From NCBI GenBank assembly GCA_029204225.1, contig CM055102.1, forward strand, positions 48,774,289 through 48,838,288: 64,000 nt of DNA. Reading direction: 5' to 3'. Source of the DNA: Diphasiastrum complanatum (lineage: Eukaryota; Streptophyta; Lycopodiopsida; Lycopodiales; Lycopodiaceae). Under the pieces are notes generated by a model, which saw only the letters and a list, made by a program, of their open reading frames with translations, ran no database searches and was not told the origin of the DNA. Below are positions 130 to 26,000 of the stretch, piece after piece (positions within the stretch are counted from its first letter, which is position 1; each line of letters starts with the position of its first letter). The position numbers and the translations under genes were made by a program.

Positions 130-1115
130 AGGTTCAAGCATAGATTTTTGATGGATTTTGATGGTTCAACTTGTGCTAATCTTATGAAATCATAATCTAT
201 TGTTTCCCTCATCATTTCAAGTGTTTTAGGATCCTTATTTGCTGTAATTTTTACACCTCTAAGGACTGTGGCTGATTACAGCGTACCTCCAACTGATATT
301 CCTTGGGCAAGCCCAAAATGAAATGCAGTTTAAGGAGTACCCCGTCTATGCGGTTAAAAAATTGTGAAGCAGCCTCTTGGAAGTCTTGCAAGTAGACGCC
401 CAAGGGCTTTGTCCCCATTTGCAACGTGGCAAATCGACGATAATATTCAAAATCGTCCAGAACAGGCATAAAGGCAGTCTTAAAGGCTACCTAGAAGTCA
501 TCCCAAGTGGTTGGAACTGTAGCTTGGTCTTTAAAATTCTGCCACCAATTATACGCCTTACCGTGCAAAAACATGATGGCAGTCGAAATATGTGAGCTAT
601 CTGGTAGATCGTGCATGGAGAAATGCGACGCCCATCGATCCAACTAGGCTAACACCACATCTTGGTTTCTGTCCTTCTTCTCTTCGGTAAAAAAATTCTG
701 GAGTAAACATCGGGTTTAGGAGAGCCTGTCGAGACTGGGACATATCCCGAATCTCATCTTCCGCCCGTTCATGTTTTGAGCGCATGTCCACAATTTGTTG
801 TTGTAACAAATTTATGGCATGTGTCATGTTCTCCATATCAGTCCCGACAGGACTTGGAGCTCTAGGCACATCCATAGGGGTGTCCATGGAAAAAGGAGTA
901 CACAAAAAACTAGAGGAAAAACGGAGAGCTACGGTATAAAACCGCAAAAAGGAAAAGACTAATGCACAAGGCCTCAAGAAATAACCAACTTGAGAGCAAG
1001 TAACTTGAGAGCAATAAAACTCTACAACAACTTGGGAGAATGAGGGAAAGTAAGTGAACATACCTCCTTTACCCCCTCCCCAAAGCTCCTCTCCACCCTC
1101 ATGCAAAAAGGACAA
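130..1115 (-). pseudogene. Decayed gypsy-type gag region
   Basis: Read on the minus strand from about 890 leftward, fragments give a coiled segment (INLLQQQIVDMRSKHERAED), a conserved tryptophan-rich gag core near 640-500 (HGKAYNWWQNF type) and FEYYRRFATLQMGTKPLGVY followed by FNRIDGVLLKLHFILGLPKE. That order matches the retrotransposon gag (Retrotrans_gag) domain of Ty3/gypsy elements. The frame is broken: a frameshift near 650-690, an in-frame stop at 493-491 and a further shift near 270, after which gag-like codons continue to about 130. No protease or polymerase is visible before the window edge. It is a dead fragment. Confidence 0.6.
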
Positions 1116-2118
1116 GTGGGGCCCAAGAAAGGCCCCATTTGTCCCTTCTAAGCCTTTCTAGCCATGTGGGGCCACCCATAGGTGCCATATGGCCCATGGA
1201 CCCCAAGGATTCATCAAATGGAATTTTGGTCCCTTCTCTCCTCTCAAACTCCTACGTACTAAAGCTCGCCCCCCTCTCATGGAGATCTGCAGGTACATAG
1301 ATGGAGAAAGGAGAAGGTACGGTTCTACAAGGACATGCCTCCACCAAGAAGAGAGTTGGTTTAATTATGAAGGGATTACCCAAGCTTAAGTTAAGTGTTA
1401 ACTTTGAGATTTAGCATAAAATCTTTTTTTTTTAATCAAAGAGGAGGGATGGCAGGGTCGTGGGGAGGCGGGCTACTCCCCACCACACCCTGTCACATCA
1501 AGGTACTAGGAACCCGGGGGAGGTTATAACTTCTCCCTCCCTCCCCCCGATTTCAAATGTCTGAACCTGTCGTCCTGCAGCAACGCTGCAGGGGGCTCGC
1601 TATCAGACCTTCCGATGGCTCACGGAAGAGCAATCCCCCCCCGACAGCAGGTCCGTGCACCCACCGTACGCTGCCGCTGTAGCTGCTGCTGGACCAAATT
1701 AAAGAAGTTGTTCCTTTTTTTTTTTTTTTTTAACTCAAATCTGTTTCCGCTGGGGGGTCACAACCGACCCACCCCCATGCTCTGGAGCAATTGACATAAT
1801 CATGTCCGGTCAAGCCTCCTACAATAACTGGCGTCCCATACCACCAGCCATCGCACTCGGCTCTCCCTAACACATCTCCTGGCCTGGAGATAATGCATGT
1901 GCTCTCCATCCACCAACTCCCGAGTAGACTAAGTGAATGGAAAGAGGGAGACCTCACCCCTATATAGGCATAGCACAGTGGGTCCCATCAAGCACGATCC
2001 TGTCGGCGACATGTGATCACCTAGGATGGTGACGCGTGGCACCTAGACATGTCGATAACTCCAGTCCCGCGTCATGCCCCTTGCGAGGCCGTCACTAAAG
2101 GGCGTACCTCTATGGTAC
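1116..2118. other. Non-coding repeat-derived interval
   Basis: No supportable gene. The interval contains a GC-rich block at 1440-1700 bounded by T-runs (1425-1435 and 1711-1731) and further moderately GC-rich sequence to 2110. It lies immediately upstream of the gypsy gag remnant in that element's orientation, so part may be its LTR or leader, but no LTR boundary, primer site or second copy was found. Confidence 0.3.
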
Positions 2119-2984
2119 ATAACAGGTGAAGTGCGACATCTCGAAACATTTTGAGATTGCAGACCTAGGAGAAGCCAGATGTTATCTTGGCTTACAGATT
2201 GACAGAGACTATGACGAAGGAAAGTTGTACCTTCACCAGTCCAGATATACCCAAAAAATACTAGAAGATTTCGGGATGATGAATTGCAAAGGAGCAAATA
2301 CTCCAATGCTTGCAGGAACAATCTGAAGATTGTTTGAAGACTGAAGAGGAAAGAGAATTGATGCAACATACACCATTCATGAAGCTAATCAGATCACTAA
2401 TGTATCTTGTAGATAACACACACCCTGACATTGCTTATACCATGTTCAAGATGAGTCAATTCAGTATGAATCCAGGCTCGACTCATTGGAAGATTGCAAA
2501 GCAAATCTTGCAGTACCTTCGACTGACGAAAGATTTTGGATTGTGTTATTCTCGTGATGCAGGATTCCAGATGCTTTCATAGAGTGATGCTAGCTGAGCA
2601 TCTCTCAAGGACGACTACAAAAGTGTCTCAGGAGGATGTACCATCACAGTAGGAGCAACAATTCTCTGGGTCAGCAAAAAACAGACCATCGTAGCTCAGT
2701 CATCCTACAAAGCAAAATACGTAGCAGCAGCAAAGATGGCCAATGAAATCACTTGCTCAAATAGTTCCTTGACGAACTAGGTGAAACGAGGAATGAACCC
2801 TTGATTTTGCAGATGGACAATACATCCGTAATACACCTGACAAAGGATCCCGTGTTTCACTCAAGGACGAAACACATTGCAATCAAGTACCACTTGATAA
2901 GGGATCTGATCGAAAAGAAGAAGTTGCAGACTACCTTCATTGGAACGAAGAAGATGATTGTTGACATCTTCACAAACTTCTTAT

Positions 2985-3512
2985 CCCAAATCCCAAGCCT
3001 CTTATCCTAAATCCTTCTCTAGATCCTTACCTTGGATCACTAAATCCCTTATCCCTTATCCCTTACCCTACAACCCTTATCCATAAACCTCTTTTTCTAG
3101 ATTGCTTACCCTAGATTTCTAACCCAGCTACATCCCTTGTACTAGATCCCTAAACCCCTTACCCCTTATCCTAGATTCCTAAACCATAAACCCCTTTCCC
3201 TAGATCTCTTACCCTAGATTCCTAAGCCCCCTACCCCTTACGGTAAATCCATTTCCCTAGATTTGTTACTCTAAATACTACATTCCAAAACCTTTACCCT
3301 AGACCCTAAACTCCTTATCCTAAATCCCAAGCCTCTTATCCAAACCTCTTTTCTGACATCCCTTACCCTAAATCTCTAAACCAATTACCTCTTATCCTAA
3401 ATTGTTTTCTCTAGATCTCTTACTCTAAACCCTAAATAAAAAATCGTAAGCTCCAAACCCTAAACCCAAAGGTCCTTATAACAAATTTCAAGCCCCTTAT
3501 CCTAAATCCCTT
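2985..3512. repeat. Degenerate telomere-like (CCCTAAA-related) repeat block
   Basis: About 520 bp of C/T/A-rich sequence made of variants such as CCTTATCCTAAATCC, TTACCCTAGAT, CTCTAAACCCTAAAT and CCAAACCCTAAACCC. The units relate to the plant telomere heptamer CCCTAAA but are heavily mutated, with no perfect long run. The block sits exactly between two adjacent parts of a copia polyprotein tail, which suggests a secondary insertion. Confidence 0.6.
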
Positions 3513-3521
3513 TTCCTCTCT

Positions 3522-3770
3522 TGGAGTCATAAAGCTACACGCTTTGAGAGGGAGCTGAAAAAACAAAGTGTTTCTATTACCAAAGTTCTGCTAGCTCTCG
3601 ACTCCCAACCTGATGAAGATGATTGCTGACTTAGACAAAGGTTTGTTCGAGAAACAAAGGATCAGTCTTGGAGTCATAAAGCTACCATGCTTTGAGAGGG
3701 AGCTGAAGAAACAAAGTGTTTCTATTACCAAATCTCTGCTAGCTCTCGACTCCCAACCTGACGAATATCT
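3522..3770 (+). repeat. Tandem duplication of a copia polyprotein tail segment (~145 bp period)
   Basis: The segment starting CTTGGAGTCATAAAGCTAC occurs at about 3522 and again at about 3667, each followed by sequence encoding FERELKKQSVSITK and LLALDSQPDE. The two copies differ by a few bases. LGVIKL is typical of copia polyprotein ends, which ties the duplication to the remnant upstream. Confidence 0.7.
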
Positions 3771-3870
3771 CAAAAATCTTATAAACCTCAAAAAATGAAG
3801 ATCACGAAGACCTAAAAAACGAAGACCTTGAAGACAAAATGTTCACGAACAATGCGAACAACAGGAGAAG

Positions 3871-4242
3871 GTCAAACGACGTGAAAGAAAAAATATTTGA
3901 GACACCCGAAGGTCGAATACTTTCGACACCTCACGCACAAAAGGACCGAGAAGATCAAAGAAGTACCGTAAAGTACAAATCCATGATATGATATGATGAT
4001 GTCAACAGAAGAGTGTTAGGACGTGCCTAATCCGTCGCTCTTGTAATCTGAGATTAGTCAAATGACTTGAAAGAAAAAATGTTTGAGACACCCGAAGGTT
4101 GAATACTTTCGACACCTCACACACGAAAGGACCGAGAAGATCAAAGAAATACCGTAAAGTACAAATCCCTAATATGATATGATGACGTCAGCAGAAGAGC
4201 GTTAGGACATGCCTAATCTGTCGCTCTTCAATATGAGATTAG
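3871..4242. repeat. Direct tandem duplication, 186-bp period
   Basis: Copy one at 3871-4056 and copy two at 4057-4242 share GAAAGAAAAAAT, TTTGAGACACCCGAAGGT, GAATACTTTCGACACCTCAC, ATGATATGATGA and the end GAGATTAGTC, with scattered substitutions. Each copy contains a TGTTAGGAC/CGTTAGGAC junction resembling a copia LTR start. Confidence 0.8.
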
Positions 4243-4667
4243 TCTTAGATTGTTCAATCTATCTAATTAGAAATGTTACTCTGAATATATTCAATTGCTA
4301 GATGCCTTAATGACATAGAAGACAGAGATAGACAAAATACAGAATAGCGAAGTCCGCCAATGAGCGAGACAATTTTGTAAGCAGGATCCACAAAGATCCA
4401 AGAAGTCCGCTAGTAAGCGAGACACTGTTCGTGGGAGAACACCGCTTCTCTCATGCCAATGCGTTGTTTGGGTCTGTTACACAATGCTTAAACCAAGAGG
4501 ATCAATAGATGATATTGTAGCTGTTATGCACAAATCATTCAAACTGTCTGATCTCGATTGAATTATTGTCTGCTCATTGTTCGTGTTTTATTTATTCCGC
4601 ACATAGGTTCAATCTTGTTGAATGCTGAATTAATTTAAAATGTAGGTCAGTAGTGTCTGTCTACATT
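4014..4667 (+). repeat. Possible 3' LTR of the upstream copia remnant
   Basis: The sequence beginning TGTTAGGACGTGCC follows the copia tail on the same strand, and a CA-terminated boundary (GTCTGTCTACA) lies at about 4667. Starting with TG and ending with CA fits an LTR, but the second LTR is absent from the window and the start is blurred by the tandem duplication, so the call is tentative. Confidence 0.35.
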
Positions 4668-4794
4668 CTGGAGGATTGTAGGAATGATATAGCAGGCAGT
4701 GATCAGCAATCATATCTGAACTCCATCCGAATTCATTTGCGTTTTGTTTCACTTTAGATTTGCTTCAGTGTTGTTGCTTGCAGTTGAGTTCGTA

Positions 4795-5587
4795 TCCCTC
4801 TGGCTACGTCATATAGATTTTCTCTTTGATGGTTCCATTAAGGAAAGTGGTATGGACATCCATCTAGTGGACTTCAAGATCTGTTGCGGCTGCAAAGGAG
4901 AGAAGTAGGCGGATCGAAGCATGTTTGACAACTGGACTGAAGGTTTCAAAATAGTTCAGATCTAAAATATGGGAGTAGCCTTTGGCGACTAGCCTGGCCT
5001 TGTAGCGATTGAGCCTTCCTTCAGCATCATACTTTGCTTATCCATTTTCGTGGAATTGGATTTCAGTCCTTTGGTACCTCTGTGACTGTCCATGTTTGAT
5101 TCTCTATTAGAGAATCAAATTTGTTGTCCATCGCTGCTTTCCACTGGTCAACATCAAAAGTAGACATAGCCTCAGAAATGGTGGTTGGTTCCTGCACAAA
5201 GTAGCAGGCCGGATCATCCATAAATATGGATGGAGGCTGTCTGGACCTATTTGACCTTCTGGGTTGAACTTCGGTCCTCTGATGTGGGTTGACCCATTGA
5301 GGTTCTGACTCATTGTCTGAGTCAGTGTTGCTATTCTGCAGTTGAATTCTTGGATCAAAATTTGGGTGCTCGATTCTTGAGTCGGATTTGTCAGCAGCTT
5401 TCCCCTTGTGGTTGATGAACTGGTCTTCCACAAAAATGACATCTCTACTAGTGAATGCCTTCTCAGTATCCAGATTGTAGAGCTTGTATGCCTTGTGGTC
5501 TAGGGAATAGCTGATGAAAATCGTTTTTCTACTTTTGTCATCAAGTTTTTTTCTTAGATCTTCAGTGTCATGTGACAATATTAGCAT
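4795..5587 (-). pseudogene. Ty1/copia integrase-RT junction fragment
   Basis: The best frame runs 5587-5063: KLDDKSRKTIFISYSLDHKA YKLYNLDTEKAFTSRDVIF (the end of the integrase module), a low-complexity linker, RSNRSRQPPSIF, then the start of the reverse transcriptase (WKAAMDNKFDSLIENQTW). Leftward to about 4795 the RT continues in degraded form (RLNRYKARLVAKGYS-like, then a motif A region with LNG) and is then cut off. It is opposite in strand to the remnant at 2.1-3.8 kb and so is a separate insertion. Confidence 0.7.
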
Positions 5588-5589
5588 TC

Positions 5590-6128
5590 AAACATCTAAT
5601 CCATTCATTAACATCAAATCATAATATAAATACAAGAAATCAAAAAAACTAGTCAAAAATCAAGAAGATAGCTAAAAGTGGCAAAACTTCACCAAAATAG
5701 ACAAAGTAAGGTATCTTTATTCATGATTATTGATCATTCACAAGATAGGGGCCTGATTCTAGAGCATGATCATAGCTCTCTTGTGATTTTAGGCACATGA
5801 ACCACTTTCTTCATCAAGAAAGCTCTCCAAGAAAAGCTCCAAGATTTCTTAAAACTCAAAATTACAAAATGAACAATAGCCTCCAAATTTAGCACGACCT
5901 CAGCTATTTATAGTGGTCATTTGTGCCTCTACTATAAGTTTGGGATCTTATTTAGATAAATTGGGCCTTACAACCATTATTACAATTCCGCTATTCTCAA
6001 CTATAGCGAGGTTGTTCGAACGACTTTATTAACTGTCCTATTGACTAGTTCTAATCTAATTTAGCTCCATGGCTATATTTGACAATTCATTAGTAAGCTC
6101 ATGGGCTAATTACATGCAGCACATGACA
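5590..6128 (-). repeat. LTR-like sequence of a gypsy-like element
   Basis: On the minus strand a purine tract (GTAGGGGGAG, 6138-6129) is followed by TGTCATGTGCTGC, the arrangement of a polypurine tract and 3' LTR start. About 215 bp further in, a plant-like TATA box (CACTATAAATAGC, 5915-5903) is present. The other end near 5590 is not well defined. It may be the 3' LTR of the element whose gag-like frames lie at 12.4-14.8 kb (inference). Confidence 0.4.
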
Positions 6129-6287
6129 CTCCCCCTACTTTAAGCATTTTTGCCCTAAAAAATGAAGGCGATGTAGTCCTTTGTTGAGCGCCATGTCGCG
6201 TGAATCCTTTGGCGGTAGTCGAGAAGTATTTGGCCACCTTGAATAAGAAACATCTTTTCTTGTATTATTATTGTCAGTAGCCATCTA

Positions 6288-7022
6288 TGTTGAATTTCGC
6301 ACGTGTGTATTGAACACAACATGTACTTGTGATCTCCTAAGGTGTGTAGATGCACCAAGATGAAGACTAGATTGAGATTCAAGATCAATCTTAGATCCTA
6401 TGGCAAAAACACACTACTACATGCATTCAATCACTTCCAACTCTCACTCACACGTGTGGGAAGTATTCAAAAGATAATCTAAGTAAAAACAAGCTGCTCT
6501 CCTTGGGTAGAGAGAGAAAAAACATCATGAGCTCTCGGGTAGAGAGAGAAAGCTAGAAATCCAATAACACTCAAAATCCATATAATCACCAAATCAATTA
6601 GCTTCAAAATGAGGAGTACAATGATACAAGTAGATCCACGAGCTACCACTTTGCTTAACTATTATTGGACCATACTTTGTCACCTCTTGATTCTATTGGT
6701 CCATTGATCCATGCACCTCTTAATTCTATTGGACTATATTCAAGCACACCTCAATTTCCTATTGGACCTCACATGGTTCCACCTCTTAATCCTATTGGAC
6801 CTCTTGGAATTCATCAAACAAAAGCATTACACTTGCCTACACTCTAATCGGCACGAGTTTAGCCTCTTACTCTATTTTGGCTCAATAGTGACATTACAAG
6901 TGGAAATGCATAATTTGCCATCTATGCCAAATTTGTTCCTATCAACATCCTACACCTAGATGCTTGATGTAAAAAACATAAGACCCCTATATCTAACATA
7001 GATAATCTTTTTCAATTCTTCA
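6288..7022 (-). repeat. Copia 3' LTR (left copy)
   Basis: 735 bp, TGTTGAATTTCGCACGTGTG at the plus-strand start and CAATTCTTCA at the end, adjoining the polypurine tract. It includes two copies of a GGGTAGAGAGAGAAA motif about 50 bp apart. Confidence 0.9.
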
Positions 7023-7032
7023 CACTCCTCCT
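7023..7032 (-). other. Copia polypurine tract
   Basis: Minus-strand AGGAGGAGTG abuts the 3' LTR and serves as the plus-strand DNA primer in this family. It lies just downstream of the polyprotein stop codon. Confidence 0.75.
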
Positions 7033-7042
7033 AAAAAATTAT

Positions 7043-10000
7043 CTATGAAGATTTGAGAATTGATCTTGATATAACTCCAAGATTAGATCTATGCTTGATG
7101 AAAGCACTTTTGCTCAAAGGCTTGGTGAGTAGATCGGCAATACAAGAGGACGAATTGACATGCTCCAAAATAAGCTTTTCTCTCACAAAATGGTGTGCCA
7201 CTTCTATGTGCTTGCTTCTTGCATGAAAAATGGGATTGTTGGCAAGAGCTTGGGCCAAGATGTTATCACACTTGATCATTGGTAGATCATCTTCCTTGAT
7301 GCACTTTAGCTCCATAAATAACCTCTTGATCCAAAGCACCTCTTTGGTAGTTGTAGTGAGTGCTTTGTACTCGGCCTCACATGAAGAGAGAGATATAGTA
7401 TCTTGCTTTTTGGAAAGCCAAGATATTAGATTGCCTCCAAGAAAGATAGTGTATGCACTAATAGACTTTCGATCCATCTTGTCACTTGCAAAGTCCGAAT
7501 CCGAGTAGCCAACAATGGATAGATCTTCACTTTTATAGAGTAGACCATAATCACAAGATGAAGATACATATCTTAGAATCCTCTTGGCAATCTTCCAATG
7601 ATGGATCTTAGGATCTTGCATAAATTGGCTCAATTTGTGCACACAAAAACTTAGATCGGGCCTAGTAATGGTAAGCCAAATCAAGGAGCCTACAAGACTC
7701 CTAAAAAGTGTGATGTCCTCAAAGGATCTTTCATCACCTTTATTAGGATCTTTTACAATTTGCTCCATCGGAGTATCTATGCTCTTAGAATTTTCCATAT
7801 GGAATTTTTTCAACATAGAGTGAGCATATCTAGATTGGCATATAAAGACATGATTTTCATAAAAATCAATTTCTAGGCCTAGGATGTAATGTATCTCTCC
7901 TAGATCTTGCATTTTAAACTCACAACCAAGTGCTAGCTTAGTTTCATCAACTAGCTTGATACAACTTCCACAAAGAATAATGTCATTAACATAAATTAGA
8001 AGAATGACAATATTGCTATCAACAAACTTTAGATACATGGAAGGATCATAGTCACTAAGAGTAAATCCTAGTGAGATAAGAAAAGAATTAAGTCTTGAAT
8101 ACCATGATCTTGGTGCTTGCTCAAGTCCATAAAGACTTTTGAAGAGCAAGCACACTTTGGACTCATCCTTGATGAATCCTTGAGATTGTTCCATATAGAT
8201 CTCCTCCTCAAGATAACCATTTAGAAAAGCATTGGATACATGTAATTGGAACAACTTCCACTTGAAGAAACAAGCAAGAGAAAGAATTCTTATTGTCACC
8301 ATCTTTGCAACAGGTGCAAAGATCTCCTCATAATCAAGACCATGGATTTGAGCAAATCCTTTGGCACATAATCTTGTTTTATGCTTGTTGATGGTGCCAT
8401 CATGATTGAACTTGATCCGAAATATCCACTTGCAACCAATCACATGCTTGTTGGATGGAGGATCCACAAGCTCCCAAGTATTGTTGGTGATCAATGCATC
8501 ATACTCTTGCTTCATGGCATCATACCACTCCTTGGTATTGAGTGTCTCTTGTACATTCTTTGGCTCTTCAAGAGAGACATAAAAAACATAATTAGTGGAA
8601 TCAGGATCCACTTGTTTGCCTTTATCAACATATGAGAGCCTCTTAGGCTCGGATCTATCTCTCATGGATCTTCTTAGTGAGAAAATCCGAGGAGAGTCTT
8701 CTTCAAATCTTGACCCCATCACATCATGATTGTCTTCAAAATCCATAATTGGTGATGCATCCATAGATTTCTTGATCTCGGCCTCTTCAAAAGATGAGTT
8801 TTGATCTTCATGAAAGACAACATCTCTACTTTCAATAACTTGAGAAGTAGAGAGTATAAAGACTCTATAGGCCTTCTTGGTGGATGAGTATCCAACCATG
8901 ATCCCTTTGCATGCACTAGGATCTTCTTTCTTCCTTGTTTCCAAGGGAATATGGACAAAGCATAAGCATCCAAAAACTCTAAGGTAATCAACCTTAGGCT
9001 TATTCAAATATAAGATTTCATATGGTGACTTTCCTCCAAGAGCTATATGTGGGAGCCTATTGCAAAGATAATTTGCACAATTAATGGCTTCTCCCCAAAA
9101 ATCTTTGGGCAAAGATGCCTCAATTCTCATATATTTTGCACATTCACATAGAGATCTATTCTTTCTCTTGGCCACTCCATTTTGAGATGGAGAGTAGGCA
9201 CAAGAGAACTCTCTTTTAATGCCTTCAAGCTCACAAAAATCTTGAAATTTATTGGAGATATATTCACCACCTCCATCACTTCTAAGAGCTTTAATCTTGA
9301 ATGAGAATTGCTTCTCTACATAAGCATTGAAAATAAGGAAATGATCAAACACCATAGATTTAAAAGCAAGAAGATATATCCAAGTGAATCTTGTGAAATC
9401 ATCAATGAAAGTAACAAAACAAGTGGCTCCTCCCTTGCTTGTAGTTGATGAGAAATGCACATCCGAGTGGATTAACTCCAAAGGATGCTTGCTTTTGATA
9501 GAAGATTTTGTAAATGGCTTTTTGTAAGATTTAGCAATAGCACAAGCCTCACAAGGCTTGATCTTCTTGGAGAATGACTTTGGCAAGCCAATAGCTTTGG
9601 CTTCTTTGATCATAGAGAACATGGATTTGTAGTTGGGATGTCCCAACCTCCTATGCCATAATTCCTCCATAGAGAGCTTGTTCACAAGAGCAACATTACA
9701 AGCATTCACATACTCATTTGGATCTAGTTTATAGATGCCACCAAATCTAGATCCTAATGCAAGTATCTCATCATTCTTCTTGATAGTGCAAGTATCAACA
9801 TTGAATTTTACATCAAGGCCATTATCAAGCAATTGGCCAACACTAATAAGATTCTTGGTATGCTTAGGTACATAAAGAACTTTAGAGAGAGAAAGAACTT
9901 TAGAGGATGCAAGCTTCAAGGGAATGTTCCCTATGCCTTCAATAGGACATTCAAAATCATTTGCAGTGTATATTGATTTCTTGACTCCATCATAAGGTGC

Positions 10001-10990
10001 AATAGAAGAGAAAGAGTCCTTGGAGCTACACACATGTGAAGAGGCTCCACTATCAATATACCATAGGCCGTCCTTCTTCAAAGGAGTAGATGAGAAACTA
10101 GAGACCATAAGAGATCCCTCTCCATCACTTGTAGTAATGTTGGCTTGCTTGAGTTGATTATTCTTCTTGAAGCAATTGGTGGCATAATGACCTTTCTTGC
10201 CACAATAAAAGCAGTTGATCTTCTTCTTCTTGAGCTTGGATGATGAAGCATTAGAGGAATCATCTTCCTCCTCATCTTTGTCTTTGTATTTGAATTTGTC
10301 CTTGCTTGAGGATTGTTGATACTGGTTCTTGCTCCTCCCTTTGTGCTTATCCTTGGCAAAGACAGCTTTGCCATCATTATGAGTGAGAGAAAGCTTGTCC
10401 ATCCTCAAGAGCTTGTACTGTTGTCTTGATTCTTCCGAAATTAGCACACTTTGGAGAGCCTCCAAACTTGGTAGCTCCTCCTTAATGGCATAGCATTGGA
10501 CAAGGTTATCAAATTCACTTCTCAAGCCATTGAGAATGACTTGAACTAGCTCATTTTGATTGATGGAATCACCAATACAAGCAAGTTCTCTATGAATATC
10601 TTTTACTCTCAAAACATAACTAGATGCACTCTCATCACTCTTTTGGCTACTTTGAAAGATTTGATTCCTCAGAGTGAGAAGCCTAGAGGTATTCTTAGCC
10701 TCATAGATAGTCTTGAGACAATCCCAAGCTTCTTTGGCTGTTGTACAAGTACCTATCTCCCTCAATATCTCATTAGAGACATTAATCTTAATGTAGTGGA
10801 GAGCCATCCTAGCTCTCTTTTTGTATTTTTGAACCTCTTGAAGAACTTGTGGTTCTTCTTCAAGGCCAAGAACTATGTCCATCACTTCTTGAAGGATCAA
10901 GATGGACTCCATCCTCATTTTCCAAATTGAATAGTTTGAAGTGGTCAATCTTTCAATTGGTTCCAACAAGGATGAACCCATTGAAGACAT
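7043..10990 (-). CDS. Copia gag-pol polyprotein, uninterrupted but with altered catalytic residues
   Basis: 1,315 codons with no stop. Order: gag (SNYSIWKMRMESIL; residues ~1-230), zinc knuckle [14 protein letters not shown] (~261-274), aspartic protease WYIDSGASSH (~310), integrase zinc region (HRRLGH..CEAC), integrase core (IHSDV, FIDDFTR, RSDGGGEY), RT (~850-1080), RNase H (SDSDF, EAEY, CDN). Gag, protease and RNase H signatures look intact. Three catalytic positions do not: the integrase Glu of the D,D-35-E triad is Lys608 (NGVAKRKN, codon 9169-9167); the RT motif A Asp is His917 (QLHVSNAFLNG, codon 8242-8240); the first Asp of RT YVDD is Asn1002 (YVND, codon 7987-7985). The protein can therefore probably be made but should not reverse-transcribe or integrate DNA by itself (inference from family knowledge). 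Confidence 0.93.
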   Translation of the reverse strand: MSSMGSSLLEPIERLTTSNYSIWKMRMESILILQEVMDIVLGLEEEPQVLQEVQKYKKRARMALHYIKINVSNEILREIGTCTTAKEAWDCLKTIYEAKNTSRLLTLRNQIFQSSQKSDESASSYVLRVKDIHRELACIGDSINQNELVQVILNGLRSEFDNLVQCYAIKEELPSLEALQSVLISEESRQQYKLLRMDKLSLTHNDGKAVFAKDKHKGRSKNQYQQSSSKDKFKYKDKDEEEDDSSNASSSKLKKKKINCFYCGKKGHYATNCFKKNNQLKQANITTSDGEGSLMVSSFSSTPLKKDGLWYIDSGASSHVCSSKDSFSSIAPYDGVKKSIYTANDFECPIEGIGNIPLKLASSKVLSLSKVLYVPKHTKNLISVGQLLDNGLDVKFNVDTCTIKKNDEILALGSRFGGIYKLDPNEYVNACNVALVNKLSMEELWHRRLGHPNYKSMFSMIKEAKAIGLPKSFSKKIKPCEACAIAKSYKKPFTKSSIKSKHPLELIHSDVHFSSTTSKGGATCFVTFIDDFTRFTWIYLLAFKSMVFDHFLIFNAYVEKQFSFKIKALRSDGGGEYISNKFQDFCELEGIKREFSCAYSPSQNGVAKRKNRSLCECAKYMRIEASLPKDFWGEAINCANYLCNRLPHIALGGKSPYEILYLNKPKVDYLRVFGCLCFVHIPLETRKKEDPSACKGIMVGYSSTKKAYRVFILSTSQVIESRDVVFHEDQNSSFEEAEIKKSMDASPIMDFEDNHDVMGSRFEEDSPRIFSLRRSMRDRSEPKRLSYVDKGKQVDPDSTNYVFYVSLEEPKNVQETLNTKEWYDAMKQEYDALITNNTWELVDPPSNKHVIGCKWIFRIKFNHDGTINKHKTRLCAKGFAQIHGLDYEEIFAPVAKMVTIRILSLACFFKWKLFQLHVSNAFLNGYLEEEIYMEQSQGFIKDESKVCLLFKSLYGLEQAPRSWYSRLNSFLISLGFTLSDYDPSMYLKFVDSNIVILLIYVNDIILCGSCIKLVDETKLALGCEFKMQDLGEIHYILGLEIDFYENHVFICQSRYAHSMLKKFHMENSKSIDTPMEQIVKDPNKGDERSFEDITLFRSLVGSLIWLTITRPDLSFCVHKLSQFMQDPKIHHWKIAKRILRYVSSSCDYGLLYKSEDLSIVGYSDSDFASDKMDRKSISAYTIFLGGNLISWLSKKQDTISLSSCEAEYKALTTTTKEVLWIKRLFMELKCIKEDDLPMIKCDNILAQALANNPIFHARSKHIEVAHHFVREKLILEHVNSSSCIADLLTKPLSKSAFIKHRSNLGVISRSILKSS

Positions 10991-11730
10991 TTGAAGTGAA
11001 GAAAACTCAAATGATGATCAATAAATGTTGCTACACTCTCTCTCTATAGGATCCAATAATAGAGTATTATCTCCTCCTATGAAAGATCTTGGAACTATAT
11101 GTGAATTGATTCTCACTAGCTTCTCAAATCTCTCTAAAACAAGATCTATTTCACATCAAATGATGGAGTATAGGCAAAGTTAGGATCAAACACTCTTAGC
11201 ACGTGTGAAGTACACTAAGAAACCAAATTTGACTCAAATACAATGATATTGCATGAAACAAAATGGGTAAGATCTCAAAACAGTGCCTAGATCACAAATA
11301 GATGAGATTGATAAGCATACAACTGTGATTTTGGATCAACCAAGCAATCTCTTGACCAAATCGTCCACCCAGGTCTAGGTGCCCTACCTAACCCTCTTCA
11401 AAAGCTTATAACTTCTGATTGGCTCAACCAAATGGAATGAAATTGATTGCATCAGAAACTAGACAAAAATAGCTTCAAAACAAGTTATCAAGCAAGATAA
11501 ATGGGTCAAGCATGAGAGAGAACTTCCAAACTGAAATTGGATGTTCCTCACACGTGTCTGAGCACCTGATTCCATACAGTACCAGGTCAGACCCAATCAA
11601 TGTCCTTTTGATCTCTTTTGATCCAAAATTGAACAAGATAGCTAGGAAAATGGGCCTTGACAATTTCTAGCTCAAGATTGATATAAAATTTTCACTTAGA
11701 TGGATCAAAATGCATGGTAACCTTAGGTAG

Positions 11731-11742
11731 GCTCTGATACCA
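11731..11742 (-). other. Copia primer-binding site
   Basis: Minus-strand TGGTATCAGAGC lies immediately beside the LTR with no spacer, the standard initiator-methionine tRNA site used by plant copia elements for minus-strand DNA priming. Confidence 0.92.
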
Positions 11743-12395
11743 TGTTGAATTTCACACGTGTGGATTGACCACAACATGTACTTGTGATCTCCTAAGGTGT
11801 GTAGATGCACCAAGATCAAGACTAGATTGAGATTCAAGATCAATCTTAGATCCTATGGCAAAAACACACTACTACATGCATTCAATCACTTCCAACTCTC
11901 ACTCACACGTGTGGGAAGTATTCAAAAAATAATCTAAGTAAAAACAAGCTGCTCTCCTCGGGTAGAGAGAGAAAAAACATCATGAGCTCTCGGGTAGAGA
12001 GAGAAAGCTAGAAATCCAATAACACTCAAAATCCATATAATCACCAAATCAATTAGCTTCAAAATGAGGAGTACAATGATACAAGTAGATCCACGAGCTA
12101 CCATTATGCTTAACTATGATTGGACCATACTTTGTCACCTCTTGATCCTCTTGGTCCATTGATCCATGCACCTCTTAATTCTATTGGACTATATTCAAGC
12201 ACACCTCAATTTCCTATTGGACCTCACATGGTTCCACTTCTTAATCCTATTGGACCATTTGGAATTCATCAAACAAAAACATTACAGTTGTCTACACTCT
12301 AATTGGCACGAGTTTAGCCTCTTACTCTATTTTGGCTCAATAGTGACATTACAAGTGGAAATGCATAATTTACAAGTGGAATGCATAATTCTTCA
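11743..12395 (-). repeat. Copia 5' LTR (right copy, internally deleted)
   Basis: 653 bp, starts TGTTGAATTTCACACGTGTG and ends ATAATTCTTCA. Compared with the left copy, the segment from the ATGCATAATT motif to the AATTCTTCA terminus is shortened; the ATGCATAATT motif is itself repeated at the breakpoint. Confidence 0.88.
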
Positions 12396-12436
12396 CATAC
12401 CATTTAAATTTTGTTGCTTCAGGTTCAACTTCCAGC

Positions 12437-14841
12437 TTATTGTTGTAGAATAAGGTTGCAACGAGTTTTCTTCATATAGAGACTTTGATCTACAACTGAT
12501 CCCATAGAATTAATAAGATCACTGAAGAAGAGATTGATGAAACATAGGAAAGCCTCAAGTTGCATTAAAATTGTATGGGTTGACAGGATCCAAGCAACAG
12601 GACATTCAATAGTCTTCTTCCTCAGTATCTTCCTTGATTGGATAGGCTCGTCTTTTCTTGTCCTTGCATCCGATTTTGTTGCCTTGTGCATTGCTCCTTG
12701 ATGTAGGATCACAATATTCTTTTGTGACTCCAAAGCGTTGATTAAAGCAATGATTTCATCCAAGTTATCTGATTGACCATTGGAGTTCCATCTTGTCGAA
12801 TCATTCTGAGCAAGATTGGTAGCATTATCTCGCTGAAGATAGATGGCCATGGATCCATTGATATCCTCTGTGAATGAAGTGATGGGTATAGCTCCTGATA
12901 GATCAAAATAGTAATGCTCCAAATCAAATGATTCATTGTCCAAATTTGGCCACATGCTAGTTGTTTCCAACTCATCATTTTGTTCCAAGAGAGCGTCGTT
13001 ATGTTGAAATATGAACAACTCATATTCGTTCTGTTGTAAACAATGATGATCCTCAGTTTGATCTCCAAAGATAAATTTCATATATACAATGTTGTAAGTG
13101 GTGATTATCTTCAGTTCGATCTCCAAAGATAAATTCGTCATATATACAATGATAGGCAGTAGTAATGTTAATCTCAAAAGCTCTTGAGTCAACAATATTA
13201 GAAGATAAGTTAGAATCCATCTACTGTTGATGTTGAGACATGATTGGATGTTCAAGAGACGTATTCTGCAATTCCTTGATTCCTTTCAATCCTTCATCCG
13301 TTGAAGAATTTTTCTCTAAAACACTTTGTACTTTATCCAAATGTTGACAGATGTGATCTTGAAGACCACGCAGATAGTGTTGGATGGATAGCTCTTCATT
13401 AAGCCACTTTAATTTAGATGCTATCAAACTGAACCTCAAATTATATGCCTTCATTGAACCAATTTGTTCCAACATATACCAAGAGTCCATGTAATAATCT
13501 ATGAATGCTTCTGCAGAAAACTCCTTGAAATCATCAACTTCATTAGAAGATTCATGATCTTGTTTGCTCAAAACATCTCAATTGATATCTGCCTTTGGCT
13601 TGGAAGTTTGCCCTTGGACTAGAGGGAACATTGTTTCATAGACATCAACAGTGGTACACAATTCAGAATTTGTAGTTCGAATATCAATTGACTGTTGTGG
13701 AATACCAGCCGATTGCAAGATAGAGTCAAAACGAGTGACCATCTTGTTGTACATTTCTTCCCATCTTCGCTCTGACCTTTCTTGTAATTGTTGTCCTGTT
13801 TCTTTTGTTTGTTCAGTACTATCCTATATGGCAGTTAAAAGTGTACCTAATATTTCCTTTGTTTCACCGCTCACTTAACTGATAGTAGGGTCTACACTAT
13901 TATTTGATCTTCCATGAATATTGACCCACTGTTGTTGAGTTGATGGCGTTAGACTTCCCACAAAATTGACAGGGGGAGTGGAAATTGTCGCTCCACTTGC
14001 CACAGTAATATTCCTTCCCTCCTTAAAATCGTTTGCATAAGCAAATGATGTACCCATCAGAGAAGAACCAATCATACCTGTAGTGGCATAGAGAGAACAC
14101 CCTTCATTGTCATCAATTTCTTCACTTTCATAGGCATCTTCATAGGCCTCATAATCAACATTATCATCTTCATTATGATCGAAATATTGTTCTACACCAT
14201 GGTGATGTCGTTTTTTGAGTTCATCAAGATCATAGAATTGATCCATGGGCTCGTAGTGATATTTTGTTCCACTTTGCACCTGTTGTTGCTCATCATGCTT
14301 GTCGCTTCAAAGTGATCCTTAGTAGTAAATTGGAATTGATCTTGATCCTGATAATCACCATCATTGAACTCTAGTTCATCCTGACCATCAAATGGTTCAA
14401 CTGCTTCATTTGCAGAGCCATCTTCAATGACTAGTTCGTGTTGTTCTTCACTTTGCTGATCGTTGTTGAAATCTTCAGAGTAATGGTCAAGTTCTGAAGT
14501 GTCGTTGTAATTCTGATACTGATCATCATTAGCAAAATTGTCGTTTTGGTCTTGATATTGATTGTCATCAACGATGTCACCACCTTGATCATAATCTTCA
14601 ATGTTATTGTCACCTTGATCATAATCTTCGTTGTAATCATCACCTTGATCCCAACATTCTTCCATACCATTGTCATAATTGTCATGACAATATGATTGAT
14701 TGTCATCCTCTTGTTCATAATCCCAATCCATTGGAATTGATGTGGAATAACCGAATTTTGTAACTGTGGATTGCAATTTTGGGAAGAATTTTGAAGTGAT
14801 ATGAAAATCGAATTTAGCAAGCTGCAGTTAAGCGGTGACAA
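12437..14841 (-). pseudogene. Acidic gag-like reading frame, broken (retroelement-derived)
   Basis: Starting near 14776 on the minus strand the first ~150 codons form an Asp/Gln/Asn/Tyr-rich acidic domain (for example DYDQGDNNIEDYDQGGDIVD). After a frameshift near 14270-14200 an acidic stretch continues (EDDNVDYEAYEDAYESEEID) to a stop near 13875. Further on, a helical gag-like segment at 13571-13221 reads FIDYYMDSWYMLEQIGSMKA then FSLIASKLKWLNEELSI and HYLRGLQDHICQHL, resembling the capsid region of gypsy-type gag. A basic tail follows at 12700-12437. Several stops separate the pieces. No protease, RT or integrase follows. I recognise no specific family; a gag-only non-autonomous element is the best guess. 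Confidence 0.45.
13049..13150. repeat. Short tandem duplication in the gag-like frame
   Basis: The motif GATCTCCAAAGATAAATT followed by CATATATACAATG occurs twice about 64 bp apart (near 13060 and 13123), with small differences. It duplicates about 20 codons of the gag-like frame. Confidence 0.65.
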
Positions 14842-15358
14842 TAGGCATGGGTTTTTCGATTAGAGCAAATACAAAGACTTTTGAAGAGGTCAATTTTTTT
14901 GGTACAAATAAGATTTCTAACTGTCAATCTTGGTGAGCTTTAGGGGTTTGCTTTTTACGGCACTAAAATCCGAGCTCAAACGGATGAGATACGGTCAATT
15001 GAAGGAATAAAGTATTAAATGTAAACAACTTAGGACAATGGGATTCTAAAAAATTTAAAGTCAAAAAGTAATAATGATGACGACATGATGATCATTGTAC
15101 TCGGCGTAGTGAGCTGGGCAATTCCGTTTTTATACCACTGAATTCCGAGATCCAACAAAAAAGTTATGAAGGTTCGAAGACGACTATGGAATGCATTAGA
15201 GAAAATTTGAACTTGGAAAGGGCCCTATAAGGATTGCCGCATAGGATGACAATTTTTTGGCAATGTAAAATACTAAAATAAAATCTTTTTATGCCCGCAG
15301 TCCTGCCCACACAGTCTTCGATGATTAGCTATTATGTGGATAGTATAGTCTATGACTG

Positions 15359-17526: not shown

Positions 17527-19206
17527 GTACTTTCAATAGCTATGATAATGTTTATTTACTTGTACATGGATAAGAAAAAAACTTAACTTCCACACTTTGT
17601 AAGAGTTTCGAAAGGTATTAAAGAAGATACATTTGTTCAAATGCATTTCGTTGGATCTCTTATCTACCATCGAGCACTTCAAGCCCATGTCTTTTTGACC
17701 TATCCCAATGTTCATAATGATCCTAACTTGACAATTACAATTTTGCATTATATAATCACAAACTGGGAAGGTGATTTGCCACAAGTACTATACTTGCAGC
17801 TTGATAATACGACTAGAGAGAATAAAAATCAAACATTGCTCGCTTATCTTAGTATGTTGGTGGAGAAGGAAATCTTCAAAAAAATTAAAGTTGGATTTCT
17901 TCTTGTGGGTAATACGCATGATCATATTGATCAGATGTTTAGCGTGTTCTCGAAAAGGCTTTCTCGTGAAGATGTGTTCACTTTATCGAAAATGGTATCT
18001 ATTCTTGAAGGAGCTTATACTCCTCATCCCATTGTTGTCCATCTGAAGCAAACATTTGATTTTAGAAGTTTCGTGCAAGGTTTGTCTTTTAAAGAAAAAT
18101 GCATTTCTCAATTGAATGATCTCAGCTTCCAACATCAATTTCACATTGTAAAAAGGGATGGCAACACATTGCGATTTGGTAAACATTTGTCCAGCTCTTC
18201 TTGCTGGCTTTCAGAGATTGGCTTGTTATATCTTTTATTTATTCCAGAACGTATTATTGTTGGAGCTTTGCCAAATCGTTTGGAGGTGCATTATGTAGTT
18301 GAGCAATGTTGCAAACAAAATTTGGATGTTGATTGGAGGAAATGTTTGCAAGAAAAAAGGCTTCTCATTGAAAAAGCCAAGCTATATGCCAGAAATGTCG
18401 ATTCAAGTTGGTGGGAAGAATTCTTTGAAGACCAGGAGTCCATACTCATGGATGTGACAACTAATCGTACTACTTTAGAGATGCCATTTTCTTGGCCCTC
18501 AAAGAGTAATGCAACGACTAATGAGGTTTCTAAATTTCCTTAGGATATTTAGCAAATGATCTTTGTTCCTTCTAGAGAGATGTATTTGGGAACTCGCAAA
18601 TCTCGTCAAAGACAAGAAGAACTTGCTAGCTTTTGTAAAGAAAATGTGCAAGAAATCAAGGTGGGTACAATGGCTGCCACACTTGTAGATGATCATCCTC
18701 TTGGCCATCCCTTTTGGTTATGGACGGTCGTTGATTTATCAAAGTCCGAAAATGGAGAGATTTGTATCTATTAAAGTACATTGGTATCGAACAAAGCATC
18801 ATGATGCATACACATAAAAGCATGTTCCTGAAATGATTGGCAACTCAAATGGTAAAAAGAATCGCCGCGCAATAAAAAATCGGCCCCACATAAGCGACCT
18901 TGTCCACATTATTGTTTATGATTTTGAGTTAACGAATTCAGGTTGAAAAACAACGAAGGAAATCATTCGACAAAGGCTGCCATCAAAAGAATGTGTTGTT
19001 GACGTCGGGACCTCGAGAAGAACAAGAGCATGTGTGGAAGCTGACCTCGGATTGCATAGGGATGAAAATAATGTTTTGATTGATATTAATGAGCAGGATG
19101 GATCTTCCACTTTTTTACCTTCTAATGATGAAATTGATGATGTTGAATCTGAAGGCGTGGACACCGATGAGGATATAAGTTTTGATACTAGATCCAAAAG
19201 AATCTA
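17527..19206 (+). pseudogene. Transposase-like DUF7869-type pseudogene
   Basis: The longest open piece, 17641-18543 (300 codons), carries LQLDNTTRENKNQTLLAYLS, then VGFLLVGNTHDHIDQMFSVF SKRL. This LDN...HTHxxIDQ arrangement is characteristic of a plant family of transposase-like proteins that I associate with DUF7869; the acidic and His positions suggest an RNase-H-like catalytic fold (inference). The frame extends upstream to about 17560 (PHFVRVSK) with a stop and downstream past stops at 18541 and 18550 (REMYLGTRKSRQRQEELASF; DDHPLGHPFWLW). An acidic C-terminus ends SFDTRSKRI at 19206. Multiple stops make it a pseudogene. It begins about 180 bp beyond a copia LTR. Confidence 0.6.
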
Positions 19207-23013: not shown

Positions 23014-26000
23014 CTCCTCCGCCCATGCCTCTGCGGAAAGCCCCCCGATTCCCCCGCTCTCCCCCTGCCACGCAGGCAGCGCCTGCCTGCGTGGCAGTGT
23101 CTGCCAATGCCCCTGCCGATGATGCTGCCGCCGTCGCCTTTTCTGCTTCCGCTGCTCCAAAAGTGTCATCTGCTCCTCCTACTCCCGGCCTCCTTTGTAT
23201 TCCTAAACCTACGGCTTTCCACTCTTCTTCATCCACTCAAGAATCGGCTCTCATCCCCTATACTCCATCAAAATCAACCAAACTGTTCTCATGTTGGCAA
23301 GACAATCAGTTTAAAGCTGATTTCCAGAATATAAAAATAGAACTCTTGCAGTTGAAAGAAACGGGAAAGAAATCTGGTGAAGTCCAAGATTATGCTTTTG
23401 GAGCAAGCAATCGACAACAAACATTGGAACAAAAGATTGAGCAGCAAAAGGAAGAAGCCCTTTCTTGGGCATCGGTACTAAAGCAAGGCACCAAACCTAG
23501 TGCTCCCATTACGTCGGTCATTTCAGCCACGATCCAGGAAGAGAAATCTCGGGAGCAAAAGGCTCTCAACATTAGGGTCAGAGGGATTCCAGATACACAG
23601 GATGCTGTAGCGGAGGCCAAGTGCTTTATGGATACCACATTGGGACATCGAACAAATGGTTTGGATACGACATGGAGGACTACTAGAGATACAACCACAT
23701 TGATCATCCGTTTCACCTCCTTGGCGACTAGACAGGACACTCTACGATGTAAAGCTAAGCTCTGTGGCTCTACCATTTTCATGGATGATGATCTTACTTA
23801 TATATCCAGGTGGAGGAGAGACGTAAGGCCTTCCAGGAAGCTAGAGAAGCAGGCATATGAGTCATATATAGAGATGGACGAGTGCACCGTTTTGATAGCG
23901 CTCATGATGGTTCCCACAGTTAAGCTTGGGAGCACCCCCAGGCCCCATCCACACCACCTTCGGATTGGACTATGAGTCACTACTTTCTCTCTTTCACTAT
24001 CGGCCACCTTATGCCCACTCATCCATCTTCACTACCTACGCATACCCGTGCACTCCCCACGATAGTCCAGTTGACACCCAAGCCACTTTTCTCACCACCT
24101 CCCTCCACACTGCTGCTTCATTAACCTTTCCCACTAAGCCCCATCCCAGTACAGCCCGACATACGTCTCAATCAACACCCTCCTTGGTATGATGCCGAGT
24201 GCCGTTCTCTTCATCATTTAGTCACCTATTCATGTACTCATGCTCCACATTTACTTCGATCTTCCCAACGTTCTTACCACCGTGTTCTCCACCGTAGAAA
24301 GCGCGCTTATGATGACTTTGAAGGGAAACGTCTTATTGACCTTCTTTTCAGTTCTTCCTCAGGCGCTTTCTGGCACGAGTTCATTCTCCGATCTCCACCC
24401 CCTCACTTGGAGGACCTCCGCACTTGGACCGCCTATGCCACTAGTTTATACACCATCTCCACTAACTCACCTATCTCTATTTCCCCACGACCATTTGAGT
24501 TCTCCTTCTTCACACCCGATATGGTACTTGCTGCCATTAAGAACAAGTCCCATAAGCCAGAGATATCGAAGACCTCGAGTCTAAAATCCTTGCCCATGCA
24601 TCCGATTTACTCGCTCCCACCATAGCCACTCTTCTTAATTCCAGAGTTGTTTCCGGTTTCCCTTCGTCATGGTGCACTAAAATCATCCACCCCATCCATA
24701 AGAATGGTGAACCCATGATTCCAAGTAACTACATCATGATTGGGCATGTCCTGGCGAAGCTATATGGTACTATACTTTAGTTTGTTGTGAGTTCAGAGGC
24801 GGAGACTACATGCTAAATGTCAGGCAGGCTTTCGGGCCCATTATTCTACCATAGATCACATCTTCACGTTACAGGCCCTGATTGAGGAAGCTAAGCACAA
24901 CAAAGAGAGAGTTGACTGCTATTTTGTGGACTTCAGGAAGGCTTTTGATTCTGTTCCTCGCTCCTTGCTCATTCAGAGACTCCGAGATCTTGGCTTCTCC
25001 ACCGACATAATTTTAGCTGTGATGGCACTTTATGAGTGTGTCCTAGGATGTTTCCGGCATAGGAGTGACATTTCTGATCATATTGGGAGCACTATTGGGG
25101 TCAAACAGGGTTGCTCTCTTTCACCCGTCCTCTTTGGCCTATATATTGATGAGTTGGAGAGAGTCATTACATAGTGTGGTGGTACTGGTTGCAGACTTGG
25201 GGATATCTTGATTGCCATCCTTCTTTATGCCGATGATGTGGTACTAGTCTCACTGACCAGAGAGGGCCTACAGCGACAGTTGGATTGCTTACAGGAGTTC
25301 TATATCAGATGGGGACTAGGGGTGAACATTGGGAAGACCAAAGTCATGGTCTTCAACACTTCTCGAGCATTCATGCAGCAACAGGAGCTCACTTTTGATG
25401 GACAAGTTCTAGAGGTTGTCCCTTCTTATACATACCTGGGGATCCTTTTCTCGGGTCCTACTTTTAGTATGAGACAGGCCGCTACCACTCGACTAGGGAA
25501 GGGACATGCCTCCCTTGTTCAGCTAGAGCGAGTTGTTTCCGGAAGTCCATCTAGGATGCTCGCAATAAGTGTCGCCTCTTTGATACCATTGTCACCCCCA
25601 CGGCTCTATATGCGGCAGAGGCATGGTGTACAGGTCTCCCCTCTTCAAACTGGGCCAGTCTTTCACGATTACGGACCACCATGCTAGCTCGGTTGATCCG
25701 AGCAAAGCCTTCTATTCCTCATGAGATTCTTTTGGCTGAGCTTGCGGTTCCACCTATATAGATTGAGGCAGCTCTTTAGCTCATCACCTATATTCAGAGG
25801 GTACAAGCACTACCAGAGATAGACGATACACAACTTGCACTATCCTCGTCACATTATCAGGGCTATGAATTATCATGGTTCTTTCAGGCATCCCACCTCC
25901 TCCTTGAGCCATTTGGTATCTCCATTACAGAGCTTCCCTCAGGCACTCATCATTATATAAAACAATTTCTCTATCGAGCATATCTGGAGCGGACTTGGAG

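Follow-up and report, generated by a model that had tools for sequence, protein, structure and literature searches.

Comparison with described elements

The described systems that come closest to the locus considered here are the Ty1/copia retrotransposons and two plant elements, barley BARE2 and Arabidopsis TR-GAG. The locus is a long terminal repeat (LTR) retrotransposon with an open copia gag-pol frame, found on the minus strand of a 64,000-nucleotide stretch of the Diphasiastrum complanatum genome (contig CM055102.1, C11:48774289-48838288). This whole stretch is referred to as the window, and the retrotransposon as the window copy. Ty1/copia elements have the same domain order, LTRs, site resembling a primer binding site (PBS) and Pfam domains as the window copy, but in the latter the catalytic Glu of integrase (IN), the motif A Asp of reverse transcriptase (RT) and the first Asp of the YVDD motif are replaced, three in-frame deletions are present and the 5' LTR is truncated. 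BARE2 is reported to be unable to make Gag and to be packaged in BARE1 particles (PMC3735527). Both BARE2 and the window copy are defective copia-type elements; however, BARE2 is reported to form a subfamily of many copies whose conserved deletion takes away the start of gag, whereas in the window copy the combination of defects lies in Pol and belongs to one insertion only. TR-GAG is reported to encode only GAG and to transpose (PMC8704663). It shares with the window copy a Gag-coding capacity without Pol or, for the window copy, presumably without a working Pol, and differs in that the window copy has a full Pol frame and a gag with no selection signal.

The window copy is a Ty1/copia LTR retrotransposon and a further copy of a very common family. 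We consider it very likely to be a single insertion of this high-copy family that decayed by chance into a non-autonomous copy. It would have inserted with the normal residues of the family and would then have gathered about 50-57 substitutions and three small deletions under no visible selection. By chance, no stop or frameshift would have arisen, and three substitutions would have fallen on catalytic codons: E608K at a CpG transition hotspot, D1002N as a non-CpG G>A change and D917H as a transversion. Later, a second version of the locus would have arisen 452 kb away, by segmental duplication or by doubling in the assembly.

Three replaced catalytic residues in an open frame

The frame occupies 7043-10990 including its stop codon and runs for 1,315 codons with no internal stop. 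Three codons in it differ from those of its relatives, as seen in alignments:

9167-9169, minus strand: codon 608, Lys (AAG); integrase Glu (GAG) in relatives, where GCC-GAG of the sisters forms a CpG
8240-8242, minus strand: codon 917, His (CAT); RT motif A Asp (GAT) in relatives
7985-7987, minus strand: codon 1002, Asn (AAT); first Asp of YVDD (GAT) in relatives

In Ty1 integrase (7z0h) and in PFV integrase, the residue aligned with Lys608 is the catalytic Glu. The position is Glu in the outgroup records L001, L002 and L003 and in a fragment within the window (43262-43441), and Arg in the more distant outgroup L005; positions 917 and 1002 are Asp throughout L001-L005. These alignments agree with the initial annotation, made from the sequence of the window, which had reported the open frame with its three replacements, and the sister codons (GAG, GAT and GAT) bear out its view of the Lys and Asn changes as G-to-A and of the His change as a transversion. 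It had also taken the Gag, protease and RNase H signatures to be intact, and Pfam models, motifs and alignments concur. Preserved in the frame are gag, the zinc knuckle, the DSG protease site, HHCC, Asp510 and Asp572 of IN, Asp1003 of RT, and Asp1164, Glu1205 and Asp1242 of RNase H. An autonomous element would have an intact IN DDE triad and intact catalytic Asp residues of RT; the window copy, with K608, H917 and N1002, does not, and judging from the sequence both integrase and reverse transcriptase should be inactive. A fourth catalytic loss, Ala1265 in RNase H at a supposed Asp position, was considered and rejected: Ala is present in all loci readable there (27 of 30; one of the other three is broken by a gap and two end short of the site), and the outgroup pieces aligned at 1265 carry Lys or Arg.

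Family copies in the genome

The genome searched was the window's own (1.74 Gb). A 735-bp RT query gave 2,923 first-look candidates, 40 of which were scored, and the 30 best loci were taken. They comprise the window locus, the duplicate L015 and 28 more, and are the nearest copies, a non-random sample. Five loci near-identical to another listed locus (L039, L022, L041, L042 and L037) were left out, giving 23 independent sisters. The sisters are about 96-98% identical, and in their tree, which has the form of a star, the inner branches are very short; the terminal branch of the window copy is 1.30%.

Among the 29 non-window loci, duplicates included, E608 is present in 23 of the 27 that are readable, with Lys in L015, L017, L036 and L039, the last two being one and the same sequence. 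D917 is kept in 26 of the 29 (His in L015 and L018, Tyr in L028) and D1002 in 28, so that Asn1002 is confined in this set to the window and L015. Catalytic losses in the 23 sisters amount to 6 of 272 readable residue cells. Exact-pattern counts over the genome, which include duplicates and leave out copies that differ at any other position of the pattern, were 1,462 for E608 against 209 for K608, 1,537 for D917 against 9 for H917, and 1,660 for D1002 against 14 for N1002. With complete place lists for both patterns, H917 and N1002 coincide solely at the window locus and its duplicate. Among the K608 matches listed (100 of 209, to C13), K608 accompanies the 10 N1002 and 6 H917 places only at the window and the duplicate.

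The duplicate (L015/L044; C11:48326900-48336600) matches window positions 4483-15039 on both flanks at 99.88-99.89% identity. It shares all three codons 608, 917 and 1002, and has 11 substitutions and an 856-bp deletion of its own, the latter spanning the 5' LTR (window 11382-12237). This is a segmental or assembly duplicate and no second insertion; an independent transposition at C11:48.33 Mb is ruled out, as both flanks match.

A wider sample covered 20 K608 and 20 E608 places, from which L066 and L099 failed to align and in which L076, L081 and L082 are one duplicated locus. It added L065, with K608 plus Ala at codon 572, and L091, with Tyr917. Four K608 places lie at C2:77.03, 77.27, 77.48 and 77.69 Mb, spaced by about 210-235 kb; L081 and L082, from this series, closely resemble L076 (C2:25.9 Mb), including its 4-bp deletion. 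The series suggests repeated segmental duplication or assembly copies.

In public collections, no close relatives were found among viral contigs or phages, and a search of the PDB with the RT and RNase H pieces gave no matches. The plasmid collection yielded distant copia records and the genome contig collection one distant locus, and both served as outgroups. L001 is a Trichormus metagenome-assembled genome contig (CAKZGI010000313.1) on which copia RT and integrase each occur at two places, perhaps through eukaryotic contamination of this cyanobacterial assembly. Pieces of copia-like polyprotein also occur on the small 'plasmids' L002 (NZ_CP115454.1), L003 (NZ_CP115302.1) and L005 (NC_015657.1) of Kitasatospora, Streptomyces and Protofrankia; eukaryotic contamination of the bacterial assemblies is perhaps the source here too.

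Substitution load, deletions and chance

A change was counted as copy-specific when its base was present in at most three sisters. Over positions 991-3945 of the coding sequence (CDS), the window copy has 36 such changes (28 replacement, 8 silent and no stop); a stricter count, of bases found in none of the 23 sisters, gives 27 (19 replacement and 8 silent). The gag part (CDS 1-1020), compared with 18 loci (of 20 attempted, L047 and L062 could not be aligned), has 16, namely 13 replacement and 3 silent. The whole frame thus carries 52 copy-specific substitutions, 41 of them replacement and 11 silent, with no stop, and the LTR divergence (18 of 629 sites) predicts about 57. Applied to the window frame, the mutation spectrum derived from these copies gives a neutral replacement-to-silent expectation of 2.6:1. 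Against this, 41:11 shows no silent excess (P = 0.89 for a replacement count this low or lower), nor was purifying selection seen on the gag part. The mutation load is that expected at the age of the LTRs, and purifying selection was not seen. The findings that, by the initial annotation, would refute it were largely obtained: a selection signal is lacking, the LTR age accounts for the load, and canonical residues are present in most sisters, not in all.

Three copy-specific deletions keep the frame, and each junction is found at two places genome-wide, the window and the duplicate:

10129-10134, minus strand: junction of a 21-bp in-frame deletion (CDS about 860)
8281-8285, minus strand: junction of a 3-bp in-frame deletion (CDS about 2708)
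7167-7171, minus strand: junction of a 15-bp in-frame deletion (CDS about 3822)

The residues at the 3-bp site are present in outgroups, and those at the 15-bp site in L001, L002, L003, L005 and one in-window fragment, being absent from another (59465-60055). Because outgroups retain these residues, both events are most likely deletions. By our reading, they are flanked by repeats of 2-3 bases; at the 21-bp deletion a clear repeat is absent and an adjacent G>A is required.

Of the sequence contexts here, CpG mutates fastest, and E608K lies at one. In these copies, the G>A rate at CpG sites exceeds that at other sites about 11-fold, and K608 outnumbers N1002 by about 15 to 1. At the load of the window copy, the probability of at least three catalytic hits is about 0.010 (13 residues considered) to 0.029 (18 residues). 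That of no stop in 52 changes is 0.08 if derived from codon composition and 0.35 if derived from the sister stop rate. About 2.3 frameshifts are expected (26 in 23 sisters, scaled to load and length), and the probability of none is about 0.10. The combined chance is roughly 0.0001-0.001 for each copy of this age. For about 1,660 copies this amounts to about 0.1-1.7 expected, of the order of one; the estimate is rough, since copy ages vary and the in-frame deletions are left out of it. Other copia families in the genome raise the odds further. Since the family has about 1,500-1,700 copies, a result that is unlikely for one named copy is no longer surprising. The statement in the initial annotation that three hits and no stops are unexpected under neutral decay therefore holds for a single named copy and loses much of its force when the number of copies is considered. 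The simple chance that it had also offered is supported by the LTR-matched load, the 41:11 ratio and the copy number.

Weighing the explanations

A number of observations weigh against decay by chance. All three copy-specific indels are in frame, whereas the private indels of the sisters are 26 frameshifting to 5 in-frame (CDS 991-3948), and arithmetic from this ratio puts three of three at about 0.4%. An open frame was the ground on which the copy had been selected, which rules out frameshifts in advance; even so, three in-frame deletions is a high number. In the same interval, 18 of the 23 sisters have a stop or frameshift; the remaining five are L021, with a frameshift in gag, and L024, L027, L030 and L040, incomplete as aligned, and a whole intact frame was demonstrated in none of the 23. 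The pooled sisters (370 replacement, 163 silent and 11 stop changes, or 2.3:1) have stops in 11 of 544 changes (2.0%), against 4.8% in the neutral model, which is thus inexact; the discrepancy may lie in the model, or part of the changes in sisters may date from the active period of the lineage. K608 itself is found at 209 exact-pattern places genome-wide against 117 for the silent C>T change of that CpG. On a tree of 54 copies (20 K608, deliberately oversampled, and 34 E608), K/E takes 7 changes against 16.5 when shuffled, with 0 of 1,000 shuffles as low; with branches below 70 collapsed it takes 12 against 17.7 (2 of 500), and below 90, 14 against 18.3 (5 of 500). Terminal branches are longer in K608 copies (0.0141 against 0.0064), a difference that age by itself could produce, and age and the K-enriched sampling could be sources of the clustering. 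Moreover, four minority sites of the window copy recur in L104, itself a K608 copy, which lacks 31 others; the figure for the 23 sisters is 0-2.

These K608 data also speak for a lineage that preserves Gag and protease and depends on intact relatives for mobilisation in trans; the initial annotation had offered a trans-mobilised lineage of this kind as one reading. The Gag, zinc knuckle and protease motifs are intact, the subgroup nearest to the window copy has K608 in L036, L077/L104 and the window (E608 in L020, L026 and L027), and BARE2 (PMC3735527) and TR-GAG (PMC8704663) offer precedents. However, only K608 is shared more widely: H917 with N1002 and all three deletion junctions are confined to the locus and its duplicate, other sampled K608 copies keep D917 and D1002 where readable, and the gag part stands at 13 replacement to 3 silent changes. 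Joint inheritance of K608 with L104 is unsupported, the pair having a support of 50, or 22 without codon 608; L104 has its own stop and frameshifts and keeps D917 and D1002. We therefore regard such a lineage as very improbable. A weaker version, in which integrase-dead Lys608 copies were themselves mobilised in trans, part of the 209 places came from Lys608 sources and the window copy inherited Lys608 before its RT losses, is somewhat less so, but still unlikely. Retention by the host of a domesticated polyprotein for a Gag or protease role, another earlier suggestion, would fit a frame that has stayed open over nearly 4 kb although it took 52 substitutions and three deletions, each of the latter in frame. 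It is hardly credible, since 41:11 gives no sign of purifying selection against the neutral 2.6:1, the changes look post-insertion from the fit of the LTR divergence to the load, and the sole other copy found with them is the duplicate sharing flanks. If the changes had instead arisen in a burst, as errors of the final reverse transcription before insertion, most of them would be missed by LTR divergence, but this divergence alone predicts 57 changes against the 52 seen, and we give such a burst scarcely any weight. Sequencing or assembly error at the three codons, also raised earlier, is extremely unlikely, with nothing found in its favour: base-call error is hard to maintain because the duplicate, with its own 11 substitutions and 856-bp deletion, has the same three codons, and the 52 changes match the LTR divergence. 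Chance decay of a single insertion remains the reading that we prefer.

Element architecture and surroundings

The order gag-protease-IN-RT-RNase H in a single frame is that of Ty1/copia. A Pfam search done on five separate pieces of the polyprotein matched Retrotran_gag_2, zf-CCHC, Pol_BBD, gag_pre-integrs, rve, SH3_retrovirus and RVT_2; the RNase H piece matched no Pfam model and was placed by alignment to other copia records. An LTR pair with TG...CA ends flanks the frame (18 mismatches and no gaps over the common 629 bp), and a PBS-like site is present, as is usual for Ty1/copia. We take this site to be a putative match to the initiator Met tRNA. Because the outer 31 bp or so of the 5' LTR are lost, the target-site duplication is unreadable. 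The parts of the element are:

6288-6947, minus strand: 3' LTR (left in the window), 660 bp, TGTTGA...TCAACA on the plus strand; full-length form also in L044, L045 and L048
7043-10990, minus strand: copia gag-pol frame, 1,315 codons plus stop
10418-10912, minus strand: gag (Retrotran_gag_2), residues 27-191, Pfam E=1.8e-28
10169-10216, minus strand: CCHC zinc knuckle, residues 259-274, by Pfam and motif
10046-10054, minus strand: protease DSG site, residues 313-315, motif DSGA at residue 313
9188-9487, minus strand: integrase core (rve), residues 502-601, Asp510 and Asp572 kept, by Pfam and alignments
7766-8485, minus strand: reverse transcriptase (RVT_2), residues 836-1075, Pfam E=2.4e-65
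7058-7705, minus strand: RNase H region, residues 1096-1311, Asp1164, Glu1205 and Asp1242 kept, by alignments to L001-L003
11730-11742, minus strand: PBS-like TGGTATCAGAGCC adjoining the 5' LTR, read from the sequence; identical string in L045
11743-12371, minus strand: 5' LTR (right in the window), outer 31 bp or so absent

Odd LTR arrangements occur in two other loci. L047 has two LTRs of this family in opposite orientation (3391-4049 and 6769-7427), and in L048, after 7430, a string resembling an inverted LTR/PBS end directly adjoins the LTR; inverted or nested insertions are possible in both.

Elsewhere in the window there are more decayed copia fragments with stops or frame breaks, at 2123-2989 (plus strand), 4792-5587 (minus), 42672-45029 (minus) and 59465-60055 (plus). 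A 300-residue frame at 17641-18543 (plus) contains DUF7869 (Pfam E=2.3e-47), a domain that often accompanies DNA transposon genes. The fragment with RVT_1 (Pfam) at 25208-25687 (plus) is perhaps a remnant of a long interspersed nuclear element.

Meaning for the family

The open frame with its three catalytic hits becomes less striking in the light of the sister copies, the LTR age and the copy number. As far as sequence can tell, it belongs to an ordinary decaying copia copy that is expected to be inactive, and such copies are what the scanning of large families turns up. For the family, the integrase Glu is the most often lost of the three residues, at 12.5% against 0.6% for H917 and 0.8% for N1002, and in the exact-pattern places this frequent loss goes with a CpG inside the catalytic codon.

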